DNA of 64,000 bases from Granulibacter bethesdensis CGDNIH1. Lineage in GTDB: Bacteria > Pseudomonadota > Alphaproteobacteria > Acetobacterales > Acetobacteraceae. The position numbers were made by a program, and so were the translations under genes. The notes under the pieces are model-generated. The model searched no databases and was not told where the DNA came from. It saw only the letters and a list, made by a program, of their open reading frames with translations. Position 1 is the first letter of the stretch. Each line of letters opens with the position of its first letter. The stretch lies in NCBI RefSeq assembly GCF_000014285.2, contig NC_008343.2:124001-188000 (forward strand), in the 5' to 3' direction. Below are positions 8,872-18,307 of the stretch, in pieces.

Positions 8872-11800
8872 ATGCGCCGTGTCCTCAAATGGCTTCTCGG
8901 GATCGTTCTGACGCTGCTGGCTCTGCCGGTGCTGGCGCTGGTGTTGTTGGTGGCCGGGTTGAATACCGGGATCGGACAGAGACAGGTGGATCGGCTGGCA
9001 AACTCCATGACTGGCGGTATGGTCGTGATGCAGGGGTTTGGCGGCAGTTTTCCGGATGGTCTGCGTATAGCCCGTCTGGAACTACATGACGCGAAAGGAA
9101 CCTGGCTGGAGATCGACCGGCTGGTGCTGGACTGGCGGATTTTGAGGTTGCTGGGGCGGGAGGTCCGGATTGACGTCCTGACTGCCGACCGCATCGCCAT
9201 TCCCCGTCTGGCGGAGGCCGCATCGGGCGGGGAAGCGACGCCTGCCTCATCGGGGCAAGGTTTTTCGCTGCCGGTGCAGGTTGTGCTGAATCATCTGCGG
9301 ATCGGCAGGCTGGAGGTTGGCAAACCGGTCGCGGGCACGGCTCTGGTGGCCATGCTGGAAGGGCGGGCAGTAATCCGCAAGCTTGATCTGGCCGCCACAA
9401 CACCCGACAAAATCGCACAGGCGGATCTGGCGCTCGATGTCCATCGTCTGGATGGACCGGATCAGGGAGCCGACCATTATCATCTGGATGCGGCGGTCGA
9501 TCAGACCCGTATCGCCGCCCATGTCACCGCGCAGGAGGCAGTGCATGGCCTCATCGCCACCATGGCGGCCCTGCCGGGTGTTCAGGGGATCAACGCCGAT
9601 ATCAAACTCGATGGTCCGTGGCAGGCGGCCCATGTTGCCGCCACTGTCTCGGCCCTGCCGTTACAGGCGGAGGTCAAGGGGACGGTCGATACGCTCGGTC
9701 GTTCCGCGCTGCTGGATGTAGACGCTCATGCAGGGGCCATGGAGCCTCGCCCGGATGTGCAATGGCGCTCTGTGACGCTGACGGCGCATGTGGCCGGTCC
9801 GTTTCTCAAGCCCGATGCGAAAGCGCATATCGTTTTGAAGGGTTTGAGTGCGGCCGGAGCCTCGTTTTCCGTGCTGACGGCGGATGCCGATGGCAATGCC
9901 GGATATGTCACCTTGCGCAGCCGGGTGGATGATCTGAGGATTCCCGGCCCGAAACCGGATCTGTTGGAGGCCGCCCCTCTGTTGCTGGATGCGTCGGTGC
10001 GTCTGGATGATCCATCCCGTCCCGTGACGTTCGCACTGTCGCACGCGCTGCTCGCTTTGAAAGGCGATGCACGTACTGCGGGAAAGATGACCGTCCATGC
10101 CGCCTTGTCCCTGCCCGATCTGACACCGTTGGCGGCGATTGGCGGGGTCGATCTGAAGGGCGATGCCGCGCTGCAACTTCAGGCGGCGATGGAGGGGGAC
10201 AAGGCTGATGCCGATCTGAATGGTACCGTATCGGTCACGGGTGGCATGGCCCCCATTCCCGCGTTACTGGGCGAGAAAGCGCGCGTGGCCCTGTCTGCCC
10301 ATATGGAGGGGCAAGGGGATGGGGAAGGGCGACGTGTCACTCTCTCCAACCTTGCTCTCAATGGCAGGACCTTGTCTGTCGGGGCGAAAGGCGGCCTGAA
10401 CGGTCAGACTGCGGCACTCGACTGGACCCTCGGGCTGAGCGATCTGCATGCACTGGCGGCGACGCTCAAGGGGAATATGCAGGCGGCTGGCAGCGTGACC
10501 GGTCCGACCACCGATCTGACCGCCCATGCCACCGTGGATGGAATCGTGGAGGCGCATCAATCGGGGCAGGAGGTGAAGTCCGGTCCATTGCATCTCGCTC
10601 TGGACGCGGTGCATCTGCCTTCGGCACCGGAGGCACATCTGATCGCCACCGGTACGCTGGACAGGGGACCGTTGGCGCTGGATATCAAAGCCGGCCGTCG
10701 ACCCGATGGAGCGATGCAGGCGTCTATCGGCAAGGCAGACTGGAAATCTCTCCATCTGGATGGGGCCATGGCGCTGGCGGCGGGGGCGAAAATTCCCCAT
10801 GGCGCGCTGGTGTTGAATTTTGCCAGGCTTGATGATCTTCGACCTCTGCTCGGTCAGCCGATCAGTGGCTCTGTCGCGGCGAAGGCGGATTTTTCAGATG
10901 CGCTGGCCACGCTTCATCTGACTGCCACGCGTGCCGGTCTGCCCGGAAAGGCTGCTGTCGCAAAGGCCGATCTGGATGCGACCGTCAAATCGCCTGTCGC
11001 TGATCCCGATGTGAATGCCAGGCTGGAGGTGCGCGGTATCGCGGCCAGTGGCATAACCGGTAATGCCAGCCTTTCTGCACAGGGTCGGCAGAGTGCACTG
11101 GCTATAAGATTGAACACGGCGCTTAACGGCGTGGTGGGGGCACCGCTTCAGGCCAGCCTGGCGGCGCTGCTGGATGTGCCGGCCGGACAAGTGGCCCTCT
11201 CGGCATTGCAGGCCGGCTGGAAAGGTCAGACGGCGCGGCTGCTGGCCCCGGTTCGCATCGGCTACAAGGATGGCGTGACGATGGACCGGCTGCGGCTGGG
11301 CGTGGCGCAGGCCGTGCTGGATGTAGCGGGCCGGGCGACGCCGAAGCTCGATCTGCGGGTGGCCCTGACCAATCTGACCGCCGATTTGGCCCGGGTCGTA
11401 GCACCGGATGTGAAGGCGGCCGGGCGGCTGGATATGCAGGCGGTTCTGAAGGGAGAACCCGCGCATCCGGCCGGCTCCGCCTCCATCACCGCACGCGGTC
11501 TGCGCATGTTGACCGGGGATGCCCGTGCTCTGCCGCCGGCTGAGATCGTGGTGAAAGCCGATATGGATGGCCGCACGGCCCGGATCGATACACGTCTGAA
11601 TGCTGGTTCCACGACCCTGACGATCGCGGGCACGGTGCCGGAAGCGGCCTCCGGCCCGTTGAATATCGCGGCGCGGGGGAGGGCCGATCTGCGGATTCTC
11701 GATCCGATCCTGTCGGCGCAGGGGCGGCGTGTGCAGGGCATGATGATCGTCGATGCAAGGGTGGGTGGCACCATTGCCGCCCCCAATGCCTCCGGCACGG

Positions 11801-12960
11801 TACGGCTGACGGGTGGCGATGTGCAGGATGTCACACTGGGTCTGCACCTTGCCCGGATCGAGGCCCTTATCAGTGCGGCAGGGGATACGCTGCGCATCGA
11901 TCAGTTCAGCGCGGGGGCCGGACAAGGCACGCTCAGCCTTGGCGGCTCGGTCGGGATCAAGCCGCCGATGCCGGTCGATCTTACGGTGAAGGCCAGCAAC
12001 GCCACGCTGATCGCCAGCGATCTGATGACGGAGCGGTTGGATGCCGATCTCACCCTGCGCGGCCAGATGACAAAGGAACTGACAGCCAGTGGTCATATCA
12101 AAATCCTGCGCGCCGATATCAGGGTGCCGGAGCATATGCCCTCCAGCGTTGCCGTGCTTGATGTGATCAAACCCGGCCAGAAACCGCCACCGCCACCCAC
12201 CCCATCCGGTCCCGTGATTCGTCTGGATGTGACGCTCGATGCGCCGGAGCAGATCTTCGTGCGTGGCCGTGGTCTGGATGCGGAGCTGGCCGGGCGGTTG
12301 CATCTGCATGGTACGGCGAGCAATCCGCAGACCGATGGCGGTTTTGAATTGCGGCGCGGCCAGTTCAGCGTCGCCGGTACGACGCTGAATTTCACCGAGG
12401 GCCGTGTGACCTTCGATGGCAGCACGACCGACCCGGCGCTGGATTTCACGGCCAGCTCCACCTCCGGCAGCGTGACGGCCAGCCTGCATGTGGGCGGTCA
12501 TGCCAGCGATCCGAAAATCACCCTCTCCAGCCAGCCCGAACTGCCGCAGGATGAAGTCCTGGCCCGGCTGCTGTTCCAATCCAGCATGGCCAGCCTGTCC
12601 CCGTTCCAGATGGCGGAAATCGCGGCGGCGCTGGCACAGTTGAGCGGTGCGACGGGGGGTGGTGATCCGTTGAACTCGGTGCGCAGTGCGCTGGGGCTGG
12701 ACCGGCTGTCGGTCGGCGGAGGCTCTCAGAACGGGGCCACCACGCCGAATAGCCGTACCAATCAGGGACCCTCGGTCGAGGCGGGTAAATACGTTGCGCG
12801 GGGCATTTATGTCGGTGCCAAGCAGAGTGTGGGTGGCCCAAACAGCGTCAGCGCGGCAGAGGTGCAGATCGACCTGACCCGCAGATTGAAGCTGAAGGCC
12901 GATGCCGGTTCGGGGCCGGGAGCCAATGCGGTCGGTCTGTCCTACGGGTTCGATTACTGA
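8872..12960 (+). CDS. tamB: Translocation and assembly module subunit TamB (DUF490/AsmA-like)
   Basis: 1362 residues. One N-terminal membrane segment (about residues 9-30) is followed by a very long periplasmic stretch of repeating beta-strand units typical of the RBG/AsmA-like bridge proteins. The conserved TamB C-terminal domain (about residues 1030-1362) ends in GANAVGLSYGFDY, resembling a barrel strand that docks on TamA. A proline run (about residue 1104) interrupts the beta repeats. TamB spans the periplasm and is thought to move phospholipids to the outer membrane or to help barrel insertion. It starts two bases after tamA, so the pair is one transcription unit. Confidence 0.94.
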   Translation: MRRVLKWLLGIVLTLLALPVLALVLLVAGLNTGIGQRQVDRLANSMTGGMVVMQGFGGSFPDGLRIARLELHDAKGTWLEIDRLVLDWRILRLLGREVRIDVLTADRIAIPRLAEAASGGEATPASSGQGFSLPVQVVLNHLRIGRLEVGKPVAGTALVAMLEGRAVIRKLDLAATTPDKIAQADLALDVHRLDGPDQGADHYHLDAAVDQTRIAAHVTAQEAVHGLIATMAALPGVQGINADIKLDGPWQAAHVAATVSALPLQAEVKGTVDTLGRSALLDVDAHAGAMEPRPDVQWRSVTLTAHVAGPFLKPDAKAHIVLKGLSAAGASFSVLTADADGNAGYVTLRSRVDDLRIPGPKPDLLEAAPLLLDASVRLDDPSRPVTFALSHALLALKGDARTAGKMTVHAALSLPDLTPLAAIGGVDLKGDAALQLQAAMEGDKADADLNGTVSVTGGMAPIPALLGEKARVALSAHMEGQGDGEGRRVTLSNLALNGRTLSVGAKGGLNGQTAALDWTLGLSDLHALAATLKGNMQAAGSVTGPTTDLTAHATVDGIVEAHQSGQEVKSGPLHLALDAVHLPSAPEAHLIATGTLDRGPLALDIKAGRRPDGAMQASIGKADWKSLHLDGAMALAAGAKIPHGALVLNFARLDDLRPLLGQPISGSVAAKADFSDALATLHLTATRAGLPGKAAVAKADLDATVKSPVADPDVNARLEVRGIAASGITGNASLSAQGRQSALAIRLNTALNGVVGAPLQASLAALLDVPAGQVALSALQAGWKGQTARLLAPVRIGYKDGVTMDRLRLGVAQAVLDVAGRATPKLDLRVALTNLTADLARVVAPDVKAAGRLDMQAVLKGEPAHPAGSASITARGLRMLTGDARALPPAEIVVKADMDGRTARIDTRLNAGSTTLTIAGTVPEAASGPLNIAARGRADLRILDPILSAQGRRVQGMMIVDARVGGTIAAPNASGTVRLTGGDVQDVTLGLHLARIEALISAAGDTLRIDQFSAGAGQGTLSLGGSVGIKPPMPVDLTVKASNATLIASDLMTERLDADLTLRGQMTKELTASGHIKILRADIRVPEHMPSSVAVLDVIKPGQKPPPPPTPSGPVIRLDVTLDAPEQIFVRGRGLDAELAGRLHLHGTASNPQTDGGFELRRGQFSVAGTTLNFTEGRVTFDGSTTDPALDFTASSTSGSVTASLHVGGHASDPKITLSSQPELPQDEVLARLLFQSSMASLSPFQMAEIAAALAQLSGATGGGDPLNSVRSALGLDRLSVGGGSQNGATTPNSRTNQGPSVEAGKYVARGIYVGAKQSVGGPNSVSAAEVQIDLTRRLKLKADAGSGPGANAVGLSYGFDY

Positions 12961-13034
12961 TCCCGATGCGCTGACGACTCGTTCTGACCGGCAGCAATCT
13001 GGATGATAGAACGGCCAGCCTGATTCCGCCTTCT

Positions 13035-13083
13035 GTCGATCCGGCCTACACTGTCCCGGTACAGCAAACGGGACCGGATCGAC
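13035..13083 (+). promoter_or_regulatory. Extended hairpin abutting the methanol dehydrogenase start codon
   Basis: GTCGATCCGG (13035-13044) is perfectly complementary to CCGGATCGAC (13074-13083). Nested inside, GTCCCG (13053-13058) pairs with CGGGAC (13069-13074). The two stems stack almost directly on the 3' side, giving about 15 base pairs with an eight-base bulge on the 5' side and a ten-base loop. The element ends one base before the GTG at 13085 and includes the only purine-rich stretch (GGGA, 13070-13073) that could serve as a ribosome binding site. There is no T-run, so a simple terminator for tamB is less likely. Confidence 0.6.
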
Positions 13084-13084
13084 G

Positions 13085-14881
13085 GTGGTGACAGTCTTGA
13101 GGCGGATGGGTCTGTGGCTTGCGGGCATTGCTCTGTTGATAGGGGTGGCCCTGCCAGCACAGGCGGCGGAGGGGGGCGGCAAGGATACGGACTGGCCGCA
13201 TCCTCTGGGTGGCGATCATGCCCGGCGATACAGCGCACTGACACAGATCAACCGGCAGACCGTGAAGCGTCTGCGCCCGGTCTGGAGCTTTTCGACCGGT
13301 GTGCTGCGGGGTCATGAGGGCGGGCCGTTGGTGGTGGGGGATACGATGTATGTCCACACCCCCTTTCCAAACCGGCTGTTCGCGCTGGATCTGAACGATG
13401 ACGGGCGCATCCGCTGGAGCTACACGCCGGTGCAGGATCCGGCCGTGATCGGGATCATGTGCTGCGACACGGTCAATCGCGGCCCTGCCTATGCGGATGG
13501 CCGCCTGTTCCTGCATCTGGCGGATACGAGTCTGGTGGCGCTGGATGCCCGGACCGGCAAGGAGTTGTGGAAGATCAGGGACGGTGATCCGGCCAAAGGG
13601 GAAACCGGCACGTCCGCCCCCCTCGTGGCCGGTGATCTGGTGCTGGTCGGCAATAGCGGGGGCGAGTTCGGCGTGCGCGGCCATATGACGGCCTATGCGG
13701 TCAAGGATGGGCATCGCGTCTGGCGCGCCTACGCGGTGGGGCCGGATAGCGACACGCTGATGGATCCTCTGCACACCACGCAGATGGGCCAGCCGGTCGG
13801 TGCAAATTCTTCGCTGTCGTCATGGAGCGGGGATGCATGGAAACTGGGAGGCGGCCCGTCCTGGGGCTGGATTTCCTACGATCCGGCGCTGGACCTGATC
13901 TATTACGGCACCGGCAATCCGGGGGTGTGGAATCCGCTGCAACGGCCGGGCGACAATCGCTGGGCCATGAGTGTCTTTGCGCGGGATCGCAAAACCGGGA
14001 TCGCGAAATGGGTCTATCAGTTCACCCCGCATGATGCCTGGGATTATGACGGGATCAACGAGATGATCCTCGCCGATATTCCCGTGAACGGGCGGCAGAC
14101 AAAGGCGCTGGTGCATTTCGATCGTAACGGCTTTGCCTATGTGCTGGATCGGGTCAGCGGCATGCTGCTTCAGGCAAAGCCGTTCGATCCATCGCTGAAC
14201 TGGGCGAAAGAAATCGACCTCTCAACCGGAAAGCCGGTGCGTAACCCCCGCTATGAGCCGAAGGAGGAAGATAAAGCGACCAAAGGCATCTGTCCCAGTT
14301 CTCTGGGCGCGAAAAACGAACAGCCGGCTGCTTTCTCACCGCAGGCTGGGCTGTTTCTGGTACCGGTCAACCGCATCTGTATGGATGAGGAACCGTTTCG
14401 CGTCTCCTATCAGGCCGGGCAGCCTTATGTAGGGGCAAACCTGACCCTGTATCCCCCACCTTCTTCCCCGCTGGGGACGAAAGATCTCGGCGCGTTCATC
14501 GGCTATGATGCCGGTCAGGGCCGGATCGTCTGGACGGATGCGGAGCCTTTCTCCGTCTGGTCCGGGGCGCTGGCGACGGCGGGAGGCGTGGCGTTTTACG
14601 GAACGCTGGAAGGCTGGCTCAAGGCGGTGGATGTGAAGGATGGTTCTTTGCTCTGGCAATATAAAACCCCGTCCGGGATTATCGGCAACGTCATGACCTA
14701 TCGCCATCACGGTCGTCAGTATGTCGCGGTGCTGTCCGGTGTCGGCGGCTGGGCCGGCATCGGTCTGGCTGAGGGGCTGGGGACGGAGGATAGCGAAGGC
14801 ACCGGGGCTGCCGTGCTGAACCGTGCCCTGAACAATTATACAAGGCTTGGCGGTGTTCTGACGGTTTTCGGTCTGCCGTGA
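13085..14881 (+). CDS. xoxF: PQQ-dependent methanol dehydrogenase, XoxF (lanthanide) type
   Basis: 598 residues with a cleavable signal peptide (LPAQAA, to about residue 28), so periplasmic. It has the eight-bladed PQQ propeller with tryptophan docking repeats. The adjacent cysteines of the PQQ-site disulfide ring are Cys126-Cys127 (GIMCCDTVNRG). Metal ligands match XoxF: Glu194 (SGGEFGVRG), Asn278 (GTGNPG), catalytic Asp320 and, two residues later, Asp322 (HDAWDYDGINE). That extra Asp is the hallmark of lanthanide-dependent enzymes; MxaF has Ala there. It oxidises methanol and passes electrons to cytochrome c. The GTG at 13085 or 13088 is the probable start; an ATG at 13106 is possible. Its stop overlaps the following permease gene in GTGA. 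Confidence 0.93.
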   Translation: MVTVLRRMGLWLAGIALLIGVALPAQAAEGGGKDTDWPHPLGGDHARRYSALTQINRQTVKRLRPVWSFSTGVLRGHEGGPLVVGDTMYVHTPFPNRLFALDLNDDGRIRWSYTPVQDPAVIGIMCCDTVNRGPAYADGRLFLHLADTSLVALDARTGKELWKIRDGDPAKGETGTSAPLVAGDLVLVGNSGGEFGVRGHMTAYAVKDGHRVWRAYAVGPDSDTLMDPLHTTQMGQPVGANSSLSSWSGDAWKLGGGPSWGWISYDPALDLIYYGTGNPGVWNPLQRPGDNRWAMSVFARDRKTGIAKWVYQFTPHDAWDYDGINEMILADIPVNGRQTKALVHFDRNGFAYVLDRVSGMLLQAKPFDPSLNWAKEIDLSTGKPVRNPRYEPKEEDKATKGICPSSLGAKNEQPAAFSPQAGLFLVPVNRICMDEEPFRVSYQAGQPYVGANLTLYPPPSSPLGTKDLGAFIGYDAGQGRIVWTDAEPFSVWSGALATAGGVAFYGTLEGWLKAVDVKDGSLLWQYKTPSGIIGNVMTYRHHGRQYVAVLSGVGGWAGIGLAEGLGTEDSEGTGAAVLNRALNNYTRLGGVLTVFGLP

Positions 14882-15753
14882 CGGGCATGTCCCCCCGACA
14901 TCCGGGTCGTCTGGATAAAACGGGCTGGATCGGGTTGATCCTGCTGGGGGCGATCGTGCTGTCGGCTGTTTTCGCGCCCTGGTTATCCCCTTATCCGCCT
15001 GAATTGCAGCTTTCCGACGGGCTGGATGCTGATGGGGCGCCGCTGCCGCCCTGCTGGCGCTTTCCGTTGGGGACGGATCTGCTGGGGCGGGATGTGCTGT
15101 CCCGGCTGTTATGGGGCGGGCGGGATGCGCTGCTGATCGGTGGGGTGGCCAATACCGTTGCTGTCATGACCGGAACCCTCATCGGGATGTGTGCCGCCAT
15201 GGCGACAGGACGTGTGGGGGGCTGGATCGGGGCCGGGCTGATGCGGCTGACCGATCTGGTGGCCTCGATCCCTGTGCTGCTGCTGGCGGTAACGGTTTCG
15301 GCGGTGCTGCGCCCCTCTATCTGGGTGGTGATGCTGGTGGTGGCGCTGGCAGGATGGGCGCCGGTCGCAAGGGTGATTTATGTTGAAACCTCCGGCCTGT
15401 CCGCGCGCCTGCATGTGCGGGCGGCCCGTGCTTTGGGGGTGGGCTGGGGAAGGATCGTGCTGCGGCATATCCTGCCGTTGCTCGGGCCGGTGATTGTGGT
15501 CTGGGGTACGCTCGGGATCGCAGGCTCGGTATTGCTGGAAGCGACATTATCCTATCTCGGGGCCGGCGTGCAGCCGCCTGAAGCATCCTGGGGCAGCATC
15601 ATCAATGAAAATCAGGCCTATCTGCTGATTGCGCCATGGCTGGTCTTTGCACCGGGTGGAGCGATCCTGCTGCTGGCGGCAGGGGCGAATTTGACCGGCT
15701 CCGCGCTGAAGCGCCGCTGGATGCCGGGTGGGACGGAGCAGGATACCCTGTGA
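14878..15753 (+). CDS. ABC transporter permease, oligopeptide/nickel (DppC) type
   Basis: 291 residues with about six membrane segments. The N-terminal segment (WIGLILLGAIVLSAVFAPWLSPY) is typical of the DppC/OppC N-terminal domain, and LGTDLLGRDVLSRLLWGGRDAL is the usual landmark region (read at about residues 63-84). The EAA loop for ATPase docking is ARALGVGWGRIVLRHILP. It pairs with the next permease to form an importer channel. The GTG start overlaps the xoxF stop codon by four bases, with an in-frame ATG three codons later, so its translation is probably coupled to that of xoxF. Confidence 0.9.
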   Translation: MTGMSPRHPGRLDKTGWIGLILLGAIVLSAVFAPWLSPYPPELQLSDGLDADGAPLPPCWRFPLGTDLLGRDVLSRLLWGGRDALLIGGVANTVAVMTGTLIGMCAAMATGRVGGWIGAGLMRLTDLVASIPVLLLAVTVSAVLRPSIWVVMLVVALAGWAPVARVIYVETSGLSARLHVRAARALGVGWGRIVLRHILPLLGPVIVVWGTLGIAGSVLLEATLSYLGAGVQPPEASWGSIINENQAYLLIAPWLVFAPGGAILLLAAGANLTGSALKRRWMPGGTEQDTL

Positions 15754-16673
15754 GCCTGTTCATCCTCCGGCGGCTGGTACAGGCCGCGTTGACCTTGCTG
15801 GGGGTGGCGGCGCTGGCCTTCCTGCTGATCCATCTGATGCCGGCGGATCAGGCCCGCAGCGTGGCCGGACGCTCGGCAACGCTGGAGCAGGTGGCGAGGA
15901 TCCGTCACGCCATGGGGTTGGACCGGTCGCTGATGGCGCAATTCTCCGGCTGGATCGGCGGGTTGGTAAAGGGTGATCTGGGGCAGTCGCTGGTGCAGCG
16001 TGTCCCGGTGGCGCTGCTGATCGGGGAGCGCCTGCCGGCCACTTTTTCTCTGCTGGTGGGGGCCGTGCTGGCGGAGATTGCGATCGGCCTTCCTGCCGGT
16101 CTGCTGGCGGCTCGCGCTCCGGGCCGGTGGCTGGACCGGATGGTGATGGGTGGATCGGTGATCGGCGTTTCGCTGCCGCCTTTCGTTGTGGCGCTGGGGA
16201 TGTTGATGTTGTTCTCGGTCTGGCTCGGCTGGTTTCCGATCGGTGGGTATGGGGGTGTACGGCACTGGGTGCTGCCCTCCGTGACGCTCGGCCTGCTGGG
16301 GGCGGGGTGGTATGCCCGGATGGTCCGGGCTGCCGCGTTGAATGTGGTCGCCGCTGATTACATCCGCACGGCCCGTGCCAAAGGGGCGGGAGAAACCCGG
16401 ATCATGATCCATCATGTGCTGCGGAATGCCGCTTTGCCGATATTGGCGCTGGCGGGGACCGATATCGCAGGGTTCCTGTCCGGGGCGGTGGTGGTGGAAA
16501 GCGTGTTTGGCTGGCCGGGCATGGGGCAACTGGTGTGGCAGGCAATCCCGTTGCTGGATGTTCCGGTGATTCTGGGGGTGACGATGGTGGCGGCGGCCGG
16601 AGTGGTGCTGACCAGCCTGCTGGTCGATCTTCTGGCCCCGCTGATCGATCCGCGCATAGGGCTGCCGCGATGA
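15750..16673 (+). CDS. ABC transporter permease, oligopeptide/nickel (DppB) type
   Basis: 307 residues from the GTG at 15750, which overlaps the preceding stop codon (GTGA). The reading frame is open further upstream, but that part shadows the previous gene. The N-terminal segment LFILRRLVQAALTLLGVAAL and the MPADQARSVAGRSAT region are typical of DppB/OppB. The EAA loop is RTARAKGAGETRIMIHHVLR. It forms a heteromeric channel with the upstream DppC-like protein. Substrates of this family include peptides, nickel, opines and metal chelates; the sequence alone does not tell which. Confidence 0.9.
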   Translation: MSLFILRRLVQAALTLLGVAALAFLLIHLMPADQARSVAGRSATLEQVARIRHAMGLDRSLMAQFSGWIGGLVKGDLGQSLVQRVPVALLIGERLPATFSLLVGAVLAEIAIGLPAGLLAARAPGRWLDRMVMGGSVIGVSLPPFVVALGMLMLFSVWLGWFPIGGYGGVRHWVLPSVTLGLLGAGWYARMVRAAALNVVAADYIRTARAKGAGETRIMIHHVLRNAALPILALAGTDIAGFLSGAVVVESVFGWPGMGQLVWQAIPLLDVPVILGVTMVAAAGVVLTSLLVDLLAPLIDPRIGLPR

Positions 16674-18307
16674 TGCTGACCCGCCGTGCCTGCCTGTCGG
16701 TCACCGGTCTGGCCGGTACGGCCGCTCTGGTCGGGCCGGACCGGCCCTATGCGGCTGCTTCTCCCCGCCATGGGGGAACGCTGACCATCGCGTTTCGCGA
16801 TGATATTGCCACGCTGGATCCGGCCATCGGCTATGATTTCCAGAACTGGGCCCTGATTCGTGCCCTGTTCTGCGGCCTGATGGATTACGAGCCGGGCACC
16901 ACCACACTGCGTCCTGGTCTGGCAGAGACTGTTTCCCTGTCGCCGGATGCGCGGGTCTATCGTTTTACCCTGCGGCGGGGGTTGCGGTTTCACCATGGCC
17001 GGGAGGTCACGGCGGCGGATGTCGTCTACTCGCTTCGCCGCACCATCCATCCGGCGACGCAAAGCCCGGGTCAGAGTTTCTACGCCGCTATCGAAGGTTT
17101 CGGCCCCTTCGTTGCCGGAGAAACGCAGGAACTACCCGGTCTCTCCGCACCTGATCCGCATACGGTGGTGATCCGGCTCTCCCGACCTTATGCGCCGTTC
17201 CTGCATGCGTTGGCGCTGAATTTTGCTTCGGTGGTGCCACGGGACATGGTGGAGCGGTACGGTGCGGATTTCGGCCGTCATCCCGTGGGCTGCGGCGCTT
17301 TTCGTTTCGACACATGGCGCATTGGCCAGAGCGTCGTGCTGCGCCGTTACGAGGCGTATTACGAACCGGGTCTGCCCTATCTCGACCGGATCATCGCCGA
17401 AATAGGGCAGGAGCCTCTGACGGCCATGCTGCGGCTGGAACGCGGCGAGATCGACGTGGTGGGCGACGGTATTCCCCCGGCCAGGCTGAATGCGATCCGG
17501 CGTGATCCGCGTTTTCAGGGGCTGATCGGCATCCGGCCGAGACTGGCGACGACCTATCTGGCCATGAATGTGACCAGGCCGCCTTTCGATACGCTGCGGG
17601 TCCGCCAGGCCGTGGCCCATGCGATCGACAAGAGCCGCATCGTGCGGCTGATCAATGGTCGTGGCGCGCCGACCGACCAGATTTTCCCGCGTGGTCTGCC
17701 CGGATATGATCCCTCATTCTCCGGGCCTGCTTACGATCCGGCGCGGGCGCGGAGCCTGTTGCGGGAAGCGGGCTGGAAGGATGGATTTCAGACGGACCTC
17801 ATGACCGCCGCCACCGATCCCAACCCGCGTATTGCGCAGGCCCTGCAACAGGATCTGGAGGCCATTGGTATCCGGGCTTCCCTGCGCGTGCTGGCCCGTC
17901 CCGCGATGATCGAGGCCGCCTGTTCCGGGACCGGTGCACCGCTGATCTGGTCGGGTGATACCGGATGGAGTGCCGATTTTCCTGATCCATCGGATTTTTA
18001 TGGGCCGATCCTGTCGGTGGCGGCCTTTGCACCGGGTGGATGGAACTGGGCCAGATATCGCAATGCCGGCATTGACGCTCTCGCGGCGGAGGCGGATGCC
18101 ATGGCGGCCCCATTGCAAGCTGCGGCAAGGCTGAAAAGATGGCAGGCGATTCAGGCGGCCATTCTGGCCGATCAGCCCTGGGTGCCGCTTTATAATCCGC
18201 TGTTTTTCGTGCCGCATACGGCCCGTATTCAGGGGGCAGAGGCCCTGTTCACCGATCCGGTGGTGACGCCGGTGAACTTCATGCATGTCTATGTGGTTGA
18301 GGGCTGA
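16670..18307 (+). CDS. ABC transporter substrate-binding protein, family 5
   Basis: 545 residues from the ATG at 16670 (ATGA overlap with the permease stop). The N-terminus MMLTRRACLSVTGLAGTAAL is a twin-arginine-type signal. The mature part begins HGGTLTIAFRDDIATLDPA and shows the SBP_bac_5 landmarks FRFHHGREVTAADVVYSL-like region (about residues 104-122) and AVAHAIDKSRIV. It should bind a solute in the periplasm and deliver it to the two permeases. No ATP-binding subunit gene follows, so an ATPase must be encoded elsewhere. Cofactor-bound ligands are one reason for Tat export, but that is inference. Confidence 0.9.
   Translation: MMLTRRACLSVTGLAGTAALVGPDRPYAAASPRHGGTLTIAFRDDIATLDPAIGYDFQNWALIRALFCGLMDYEPGTTTLRPGLAETVSLSPDARVYRFTLRRGLRFHHGREVTAADVVYSLRRTIHPATQSPGQSFYAAIEGFGPFVAGETQELPGLSAPDPHTVVIRLSRPYAPFLHALALNFASVVPRDMVERYGADFGRHPVGCGAFRFDTWRIGQSVVLRRYEAYYEPGLPYLDRIIAEIGQEPLTAMLRLERGEIDVVGDGIPPARLNAIRRDPRFQGLIGIRPRLATTYLAMNVTRPPFDTLRVRQAVAHAIDKSRIVRLINGRGAPTDQIFPRGLPGYDPSFSGPAYDPARARSLLREAGWKDGFQTDLMTAATDPNPRIAQALQQDLEAIGIRASLRVLARPAMIEAACSGTGAPLIWSGDTGWSADFPDPSDFYGPILSVAAFAPGGWNWARYRNAGIDALAAEADAMAAPLQAAARLKRWQAIQAAILADQPWVPLYNPLFFVPHTARIQGAEALFTDPVVTPVNFMHVYVVEG

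Follow-up and report, generated by a model that had tools for sequence, protein, structure and literature searches.

A GC-rich gap between two genes of Granulibacter bethesdensis CGDNIH1 contains a strong inverted repeat that runs up to the reading frame of a methanol dehydrogenase, which raises the question of whether the repeat contributes to the expression of this gene and, if so, in which form. The window analysed here is the whole stretch of 64,000 nucleotides, and the coordinates given below are those of the window unless stated otherwise; the genome from which it comes is a single contig of 2,708,434 bases. The comparison set consists of the window species and two sister species of the genus, referred to as G001 and G002. 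The gap is bordered by the following genes:

8872 to 12960, plus strand: open reading frame for a TamB-like translocation and assembly module protein (NCBIfam ATportTamB, E 3.7e-45, under the curated cut-off)
13085 to 14881, plus strand: xoxF, PQQ-dependent lanthanide-type methanol dehydrogenase, open reading frame from the most upstream GTG (NCBIfam TIGR03075, E 7.7e-203)

The gap between tamB and xoxF is 124 nt long and the hairpin occupies the positions 75-123 nt past the tamB stop codon. The closest solved relatives of the xoxF product are the lanthanide-dependent XoxF structures 6oc5 and 6oc6 (E 7.6e-233), with 6dam also top-ranked, and its translation contains WDYDGINE, within which lies DYDG, presumably the extra Asp motif of lanthanide-dependent XoxF. 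With lanthanide-dependent XoxF as its nearest relative and the extra Asp in place, the gene at 13085-14881 can be assigned to XoxF on sequence grounds. A passage of PMC2680597 states that xoxF is present in all the genomes compared there, G. bethesdensis included, except that of Silicibacter pomeroyi. On the 3' side of xoxF, at 14878-18304 and with overlapping ends, are found genes for two peptide/nickel-type ABC permeases (Opp4C and Opp2B) and a substrate-binding protein (GsiB), named after the best NCBIfam models, which all score under their curated cut-offs; no ATPase was detected among the eight proteins tested up to 19391. A role of these permease and binding-protein genes in the uptake of a metal or metallophore is conceivable.

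The element that raised the question is the following:

13035 to 13083, plus strand: hairpin of the preliminary description, with outer arms 13035-13044 / 13074-13083 and inner arms 13054-13058 / 13069-13073; not kept as such in the sister species

It had been described as a nested hairpin of 10+6 bp that ends one base before the xoxF start. The hairpin and its nesting were recovered, the outer arm GTCGATCCGG (13035-13044) being perfectly complementary to CCGGATCGAC (13074-13083) with a further stem nested within, while the number of pairs was corrected to 10 + 5, because a sixth inner pair would need C13074 twice. The distance of one base holds for the GTG at 13085 and for none of the other three in-frame start codons. 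The minimum free energy of 13035-13083 is -24.0 kcal/mol (z -4.54) and none of 200 dinucleotide shuffles was equally stable. The hairpin is real, and only the lower part of a larger structure is common to the two sister species, as described below.

The frequency of such elements was estimated in several ways. In 184 kb of the window genome, 29 perfect inverted repeats have arms of 10 bp or longer and loops of 3-40; three shuffled copies together gave 33, about 11 for each 184 kb. A folding energy of -24 kcal/mol or lower was reached by 285 of 26,279 windows of 49 nt overall and, among 1,756 intergenic windows, by 20 that represent about 14 places. At -24.6 kcal/mol or lower, such a window was present in 8 of 140 gene-start regions; the xoxF region falls outside the 15 best of these 140 in a tiling whose step of 3 misses the exact stem. 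The counts of repeats and windows therefore indicate that the hairpin is uncommon at a given gene, yet that a few are expected in a region of this size. They bear on the simplest explanation, namely that the element has no function and arose by chance as an inverted repeat in the GC-rich gap of 124 nt, the conserved blocks reflecting promoter, Shine-Dalgarno and coding constraint; the 29 perfect repeats are in its favour.

Conservation in the sister species was examined next to these counts. Of the 15 pairs in the exact stem at 13035-13083, G002 keeps 11 and G001 keeps 10; as drawn, 80% of the cells are paired across the species, and compensated pairs, altered on both sides, number zero. Its 3' arm is invariant in the three species and its 5' arm is not, the 49-nt hairpin is weaker in the sister species (-16.2 and -17.7 kcal/mol), and the outer two-arm pattern is found at a single place in the window genome and is absent from both sister species. 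A search of related genomes for compensatory changes, as proposed in the preliminary description, thus speaks against the exact stem, because its pairing as drawn is poorly conserved, and in favour of a longer hairpin that surrounds it:

13016 to 13105, plus strand: genus-conserved long imperfect leader hairpin, by fold and alignment of the three species, that holds the ribosome-binding site and the first codons
13018 to 13031, plus strand: 14-nt block GCCTGATTCCGCCT, invariant in the three species, the 5' strand of the lower stem

This leader aligns without gaps across the three species, in which the 90-nt fold has z values of -3.13, -3.35 and -3.80. Intact pairs in all three species amount to 28 of 30, and 97.8% of the 90 cells pair; one pair has both of its bases altered (CG to UA), and a further five vary on one side while still pairing in at least two species. 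At its top the common fold has CCGG/CCGG, CCT paired to GGG or AGG, and CTGY/RCAG; below these come GCCT/AGGC, GATT with AGTC or AATC, CGCC/GGTG, and a pyrimidine-rich arm ending in GTC or GCC that pairs with GACGG. The apical fold differs between the species: the upper half, to which the perfect 10-bp arms belong, is refolded. Invariant runs of at least 8 nt number four in 12950-13130, three of them within the long hairpin and the fourth overlapping its end.

The consensus fold energy of a 94-nt alignment window was better than that of 300 out of 300 column shuffles; for three other alignment windows, shuffles as good numbered 1, 15 (z -1.61) and 135 (z -0.02) of 300. As a yardstick, 88 gene-start regions (from 90 with both relatives; 92 regions, 93 open reading frames) were scored alike, and the best xoxF window (z -4.46) was surpassed in four of them (-8.3, -7.1, -6.45 and -6.2), all long near-perfect hairpins, two of which are one intergenic hairpin seen on both strands. 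The latter is a perfect 13-bp hairpin CGTAAAGCGTTGC...GCAACGCTTTACG between open reading frames at genome positions 197186-197217; no other start-region fold of the background set is as strongly conserved (z -8.3 on one strand and -7.1 on the other).

As there are only three species, with G001 and G002 near identical here, the comparison represents in effect one divergence. A covariation control for the long hairpin, in which the partner letters were shuffled, was as good in 176 of 500 cases and hence not significant, and random placement of the observed substitutions retained as many pairs in 3 to 30% of the trials (P 0.03-0.30) and matched the low fold energy in 0.5 to 7%. The weak pair-retention tests and the covariation control favour the absence of function, as does the failure to find relatives outside the genus; against it, the strong fold recurs in all three species, at most 7% of the random-substitution controls match its strength, and the invariant block of 14 bases at 13018-13031 falls on the 3' side of the best promoter and belongs to no Shine-Dalgarno sequence. 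We regard a lack of function as rather unlikely, and conservation of the lower hairpin, judged from the alignment, as probable, not proven.

Whether the hairpin is transcribed depends on the position of the promoter, for which the top-scoring prediction is:

12984 to 12989, plus strand: predicted -35 element CTGACC (CTGATC in both sisters) of the promoter that scores highest in the three species
13004 to 13012, plus strand: predicted extended -10 element, TGA + TAGAAC (TGA + TATAAC in the sisters), with a 17-nt spacer

With its -10 hexamer at 13007-13012, this promoter ranks first in each of the three species under a simple sigma-70 matrix with E. coli frequencies, and a mean score at least as high came from 3 of 500 column shuffles; a stricter promoter scan found no promoter. 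Another candidate further downstream (-10 TACACT at 13047-13052), with its start inside the hairpin, was rejected for its lower score (4.55 against 7.45-7.81). The 5' end of the xoxF mRNA would lie at about 13018-13020, where GCCTGATTCCGCCT begins, and this predicted start coincides with the foot of the long stem, as would be expected of a 5'-terminal stabilising stem-loop. The hairpin is probably transcribed, since the best predicted promoter sits upstream of it. A transcription start downstream of the hairpin had been named as an observation that would refute the proposal; the start is predicted upstream instead.

The position of the promoter also bears on the possibility that the hairpin is a U-less (I-shaped) intrinsic terminator or attenuator of read-through from tamB. 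In agreement with the preliminary description, the hairpin has no terminator T-run, canonical intrinsic terminators (a GC-rich stem followed by a U-run) numbering zero in 12700-13300. PMC12403871 reports that transcripts of the alphaproteobacterium Methylosinus sporium 5 commonly end in hairpins that lack U, and this precedent together with the location shortly after the tamB stop argues for a terminator. With the I-shaped terminators of GC-rich alphaproteobacteria described there, the xoxF hairpin shares a GC-rich stem, the lack of a U-tract and a place after a gene; it differs from them in lying downstream of the predicted promoter of xoxF and in adjoining the ribosome-binding site (PMC12403871). 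A terminator would thus stand between the predicted xoxF promoter and xoxF, abutting the Shine-Dalgarno sequence, and in the sisters the 49-nt hairpin has the two lower stabilities given above; we consider this explanation improbable.

The same small probability is given to a DNA operator near the transcription start, in which a regulator would bind the outer arms, the dyad CTGY-N6-RCAG (13051-13064) or both. The dyad stays symmetrical with both of its halves changed (CTGT/ACAG to CTGC/GCAG), as would be expected of an operator. The outer arms, on the other hand, lose their symmetry in the sisters, and no regulator gene was identified; the outer arms do not behave as the operator of a shared regulator, because a single one of the three genomes has their 10-bp pattern, at a single place.

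The relation of the hairpin to translation depends on the start codon. Four in-frame options are available for xoxF, GTG 13085, GTG 13088, TTG 13097 and ATG 13106, and the assignment that we favour is:

13084 to 13091, plus strand: likely Shine-Dalgarno sequence GGTGGTGA, by duplex energy; invariant in the three species
13097 to 13099, plus strand: likely start codon TTG, by its spacing from the Shine-Dalgarno sequence; protein MRRMGLWLAG..., with a plausible signal peptide

The Shine-Dalgarno duplex for TTG 13097 amounts to -6.4 kcal/mol at a spacing of 5, and the other three starts reach -4.4, -3.3 and -5.0 kcal/mol. A canonical anti-Shine-Dalgarno sequence was assumed for these values because 16S rRNA was not found: RF00177 had no match in the searched genome sequence, for which a completeness of 99.99 is given and which is perhaps incomplete. 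Translation likely starts at TTG 13097 with the Shine-Dalgarno sequence at 13084-13091. The preliminary description held that the stem sequesters the only purine-rich stretch near the start; this is wrong, as GGTGGTGA, which is one mismatch away from GGAGGTGA, adjoins the stem on the outside. In RNA beginning at 13018, opening the site at TTG 13097 costs 9.5 kcal/mol in the window species, 10.0 in G001 and 12.6 in G002; with a median of 9.0 kcal/mol for 140 background starts, the cost in the window species is average. At GTG 13085 the corresponding costs are 19.1, 14.3 and 15.1 kcal/mol, reached by 0, 15 and 10 of the 140 background starts, which were chosen by rule so that these ranks are rough. 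Sequestration of the ribosome-binding site is consequently supported only with a GTG as the start codon. In a longer context, the Shine-Dalgarno sequence is mostly paired in G001, partly paired in G002 and largely free in the window species.

Part of GCCTGATTCCGCCT has two possible partners, GGTG of the Shine-Dalgarno sequence and AGGCGGA of the first codons. In the open form, TCCGCCT pairs with AGGCGGA (codons 2-4 if TTG 13097 is the start), which leaves GGTGGTGA in or near a loop, and in the closed form CGCC within TCCGCCT pairs with GGTG. The ensemble energies of the closed and open forms are -49.6 and -49.8 kcal/mol in the window species, -37.1 and -42.9 in G001, and -44.8 and -43.5 in G002. 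The near-balance of these predicted folds in two of the three species permits a switch and does not demonstrate one. A regulated translational switch (thermometer, riboswitch or target of a small RNA), in which TCCGCCT would occupy part of the Shine-Dalgarno sequence or release it, draws support from the invariance of both pairing partners in the three species and from the gap between closed and open forms of 0.2 kcal/mol in the window species and 1.3 kcal/mol in G002. Against it are the preference of G001 for the open form by 5.8 kcal/mol, the variation of the apical fold between species, the lack of any Rfam family match and the unstructured character, as a group, of 115 xoxF-type leaders (mean z -0.25). 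At the gathering score, Rfam gave no match in the 64-kb window, and a permissive search of 12900-13300 returned sub-threshold matches with E of about 0.8 or worse, far under the gathering scores. The marks of a new riboswitch, a conserved aptamer with an alternative platform fold, were not found, the apical fold and the preference at the foot differing by species.

RNA thermometers of the ROSE type are leader hairpins that sequester the ribosome-binding site. The xoxF leader is like these and other sequestering leaders in its imperfect stem, its G-U pair and the internal loops around the Shine-Dalgarno sequence; it differs in having no Rfam match and in its Shine-Dalgarno sequence, which in the longer context of the window species is largely unpaired. 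Nothing supports the sensing of lanthanide or methanol, for which the preliminary description had suggested probing: no Rfam family matches, and the apical region, the expected site of an aptamer, is refolded from species to species. We consider a regulated switch quite unlikely, and still less probable is its most specific form, a two-state leader of this genus in which TCCGCCT alternates between the Shine-Dalgarno sequence and codons 2-4, with a signal (temperature, a small RNA, a protein or possibly a metal) setting translation.

The distribution of the leader was examined with a covariance model, which matched only the three genus members among 49 sequence sources, the next-best match (E 0.54) being the reverse strand of the same place, and which under strict filters matched 3 of 200 genomes of the family, again the genus members only. 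Similar DNA was not found in plasmids. A search for the TamB-xoxF synteny gave TamB matches at the loci of the three genus members only, the loci outside the genus carrying about 1.5 kb of flank. The same genome has three further XoxF/MxaF-like genes, at 2155981-2157669, 735542-737296 and 393523-395241 (65, 63 and 48% identity), and their leaders show no common structure by model or by eye; that of 2155981-2157669 has a strong hairpin of its own (best 60-nt fold -31.1 kcal/mol), unmatched by the model.

As a group, the 115 xoxF-type leaders are unstructured and have strong ribosome-binding sites. One of the 115 reaches z of -2 or lower; the window leader stands at -1.61, G002 at -1.19 and G001 at -0.89, and this test, measured at the ATG with Markov shuffles, does not single out the window leader strongly. 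In the strength of the best Shine-Dalgarno sequence the window gene is the third weakest of the 115 and the sister copies, for which the rule chose a TTG further downstream, are sixth and seventh. Beside this observed weakness stand the fold predicted in all three species, the conservation of the sequence, and the limitation of the structure to this genus among the genomes searched.

The explanation that we tentatively prefer, with a chance falling just short of even, is that the xoxF mRNA begins with a structured leader specific to the genus, placed on a weak ribosome-binding site and damping translation and/or shielding the 5' end. In its favour are the recurrent fold, the retained pairs, the promoter that ranks first in each species and the weak Shine-Dalgarno sequence; against it are the single effective divergence, the control results for covariation and pair retention, the two weak alignment windows, the largely free Shine-Dalgarno sequence of the window species, the average opening cost at TTG 13097 and the z of -1.61 at the ATG. 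The hairpin at 13035-13083 would be the top of this leader. Transcription from about 13018-13020 would give an RNA whose 5' end is the foot of an imperfect hairpin of about 90 nt, the 3' strand of which would carry GGTGGTGA, the TTG start and the first codons. Its effect would be passive, by less initiation at an already weak ribosome-binding site and/or by protection of the 5' end from decay. The promoter, the start codon and the influence on translation or on stability all enter this mechanism as inferred elements.

A known stabiliser of the second kind is the 5'-terminal stem-loop of the E. coli ompA leader. The xoxF leader resembles it in a strong stem-loop at the 5' end of the mRNA (predicted for xoxF) and in an exported protein; it differs in that the xoxF Shine-Dalgarno sequence and start codon are inside or beside the stem (PMC2777011). 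No description of a structured xoxF leader was found in the titles and abstracts of the literature searched. The leader is probably a modest, genus-specific feature of expression; if it damps or times translation, this copy of xoxF would be controlled post-transcriptionally as well as by its promoter.
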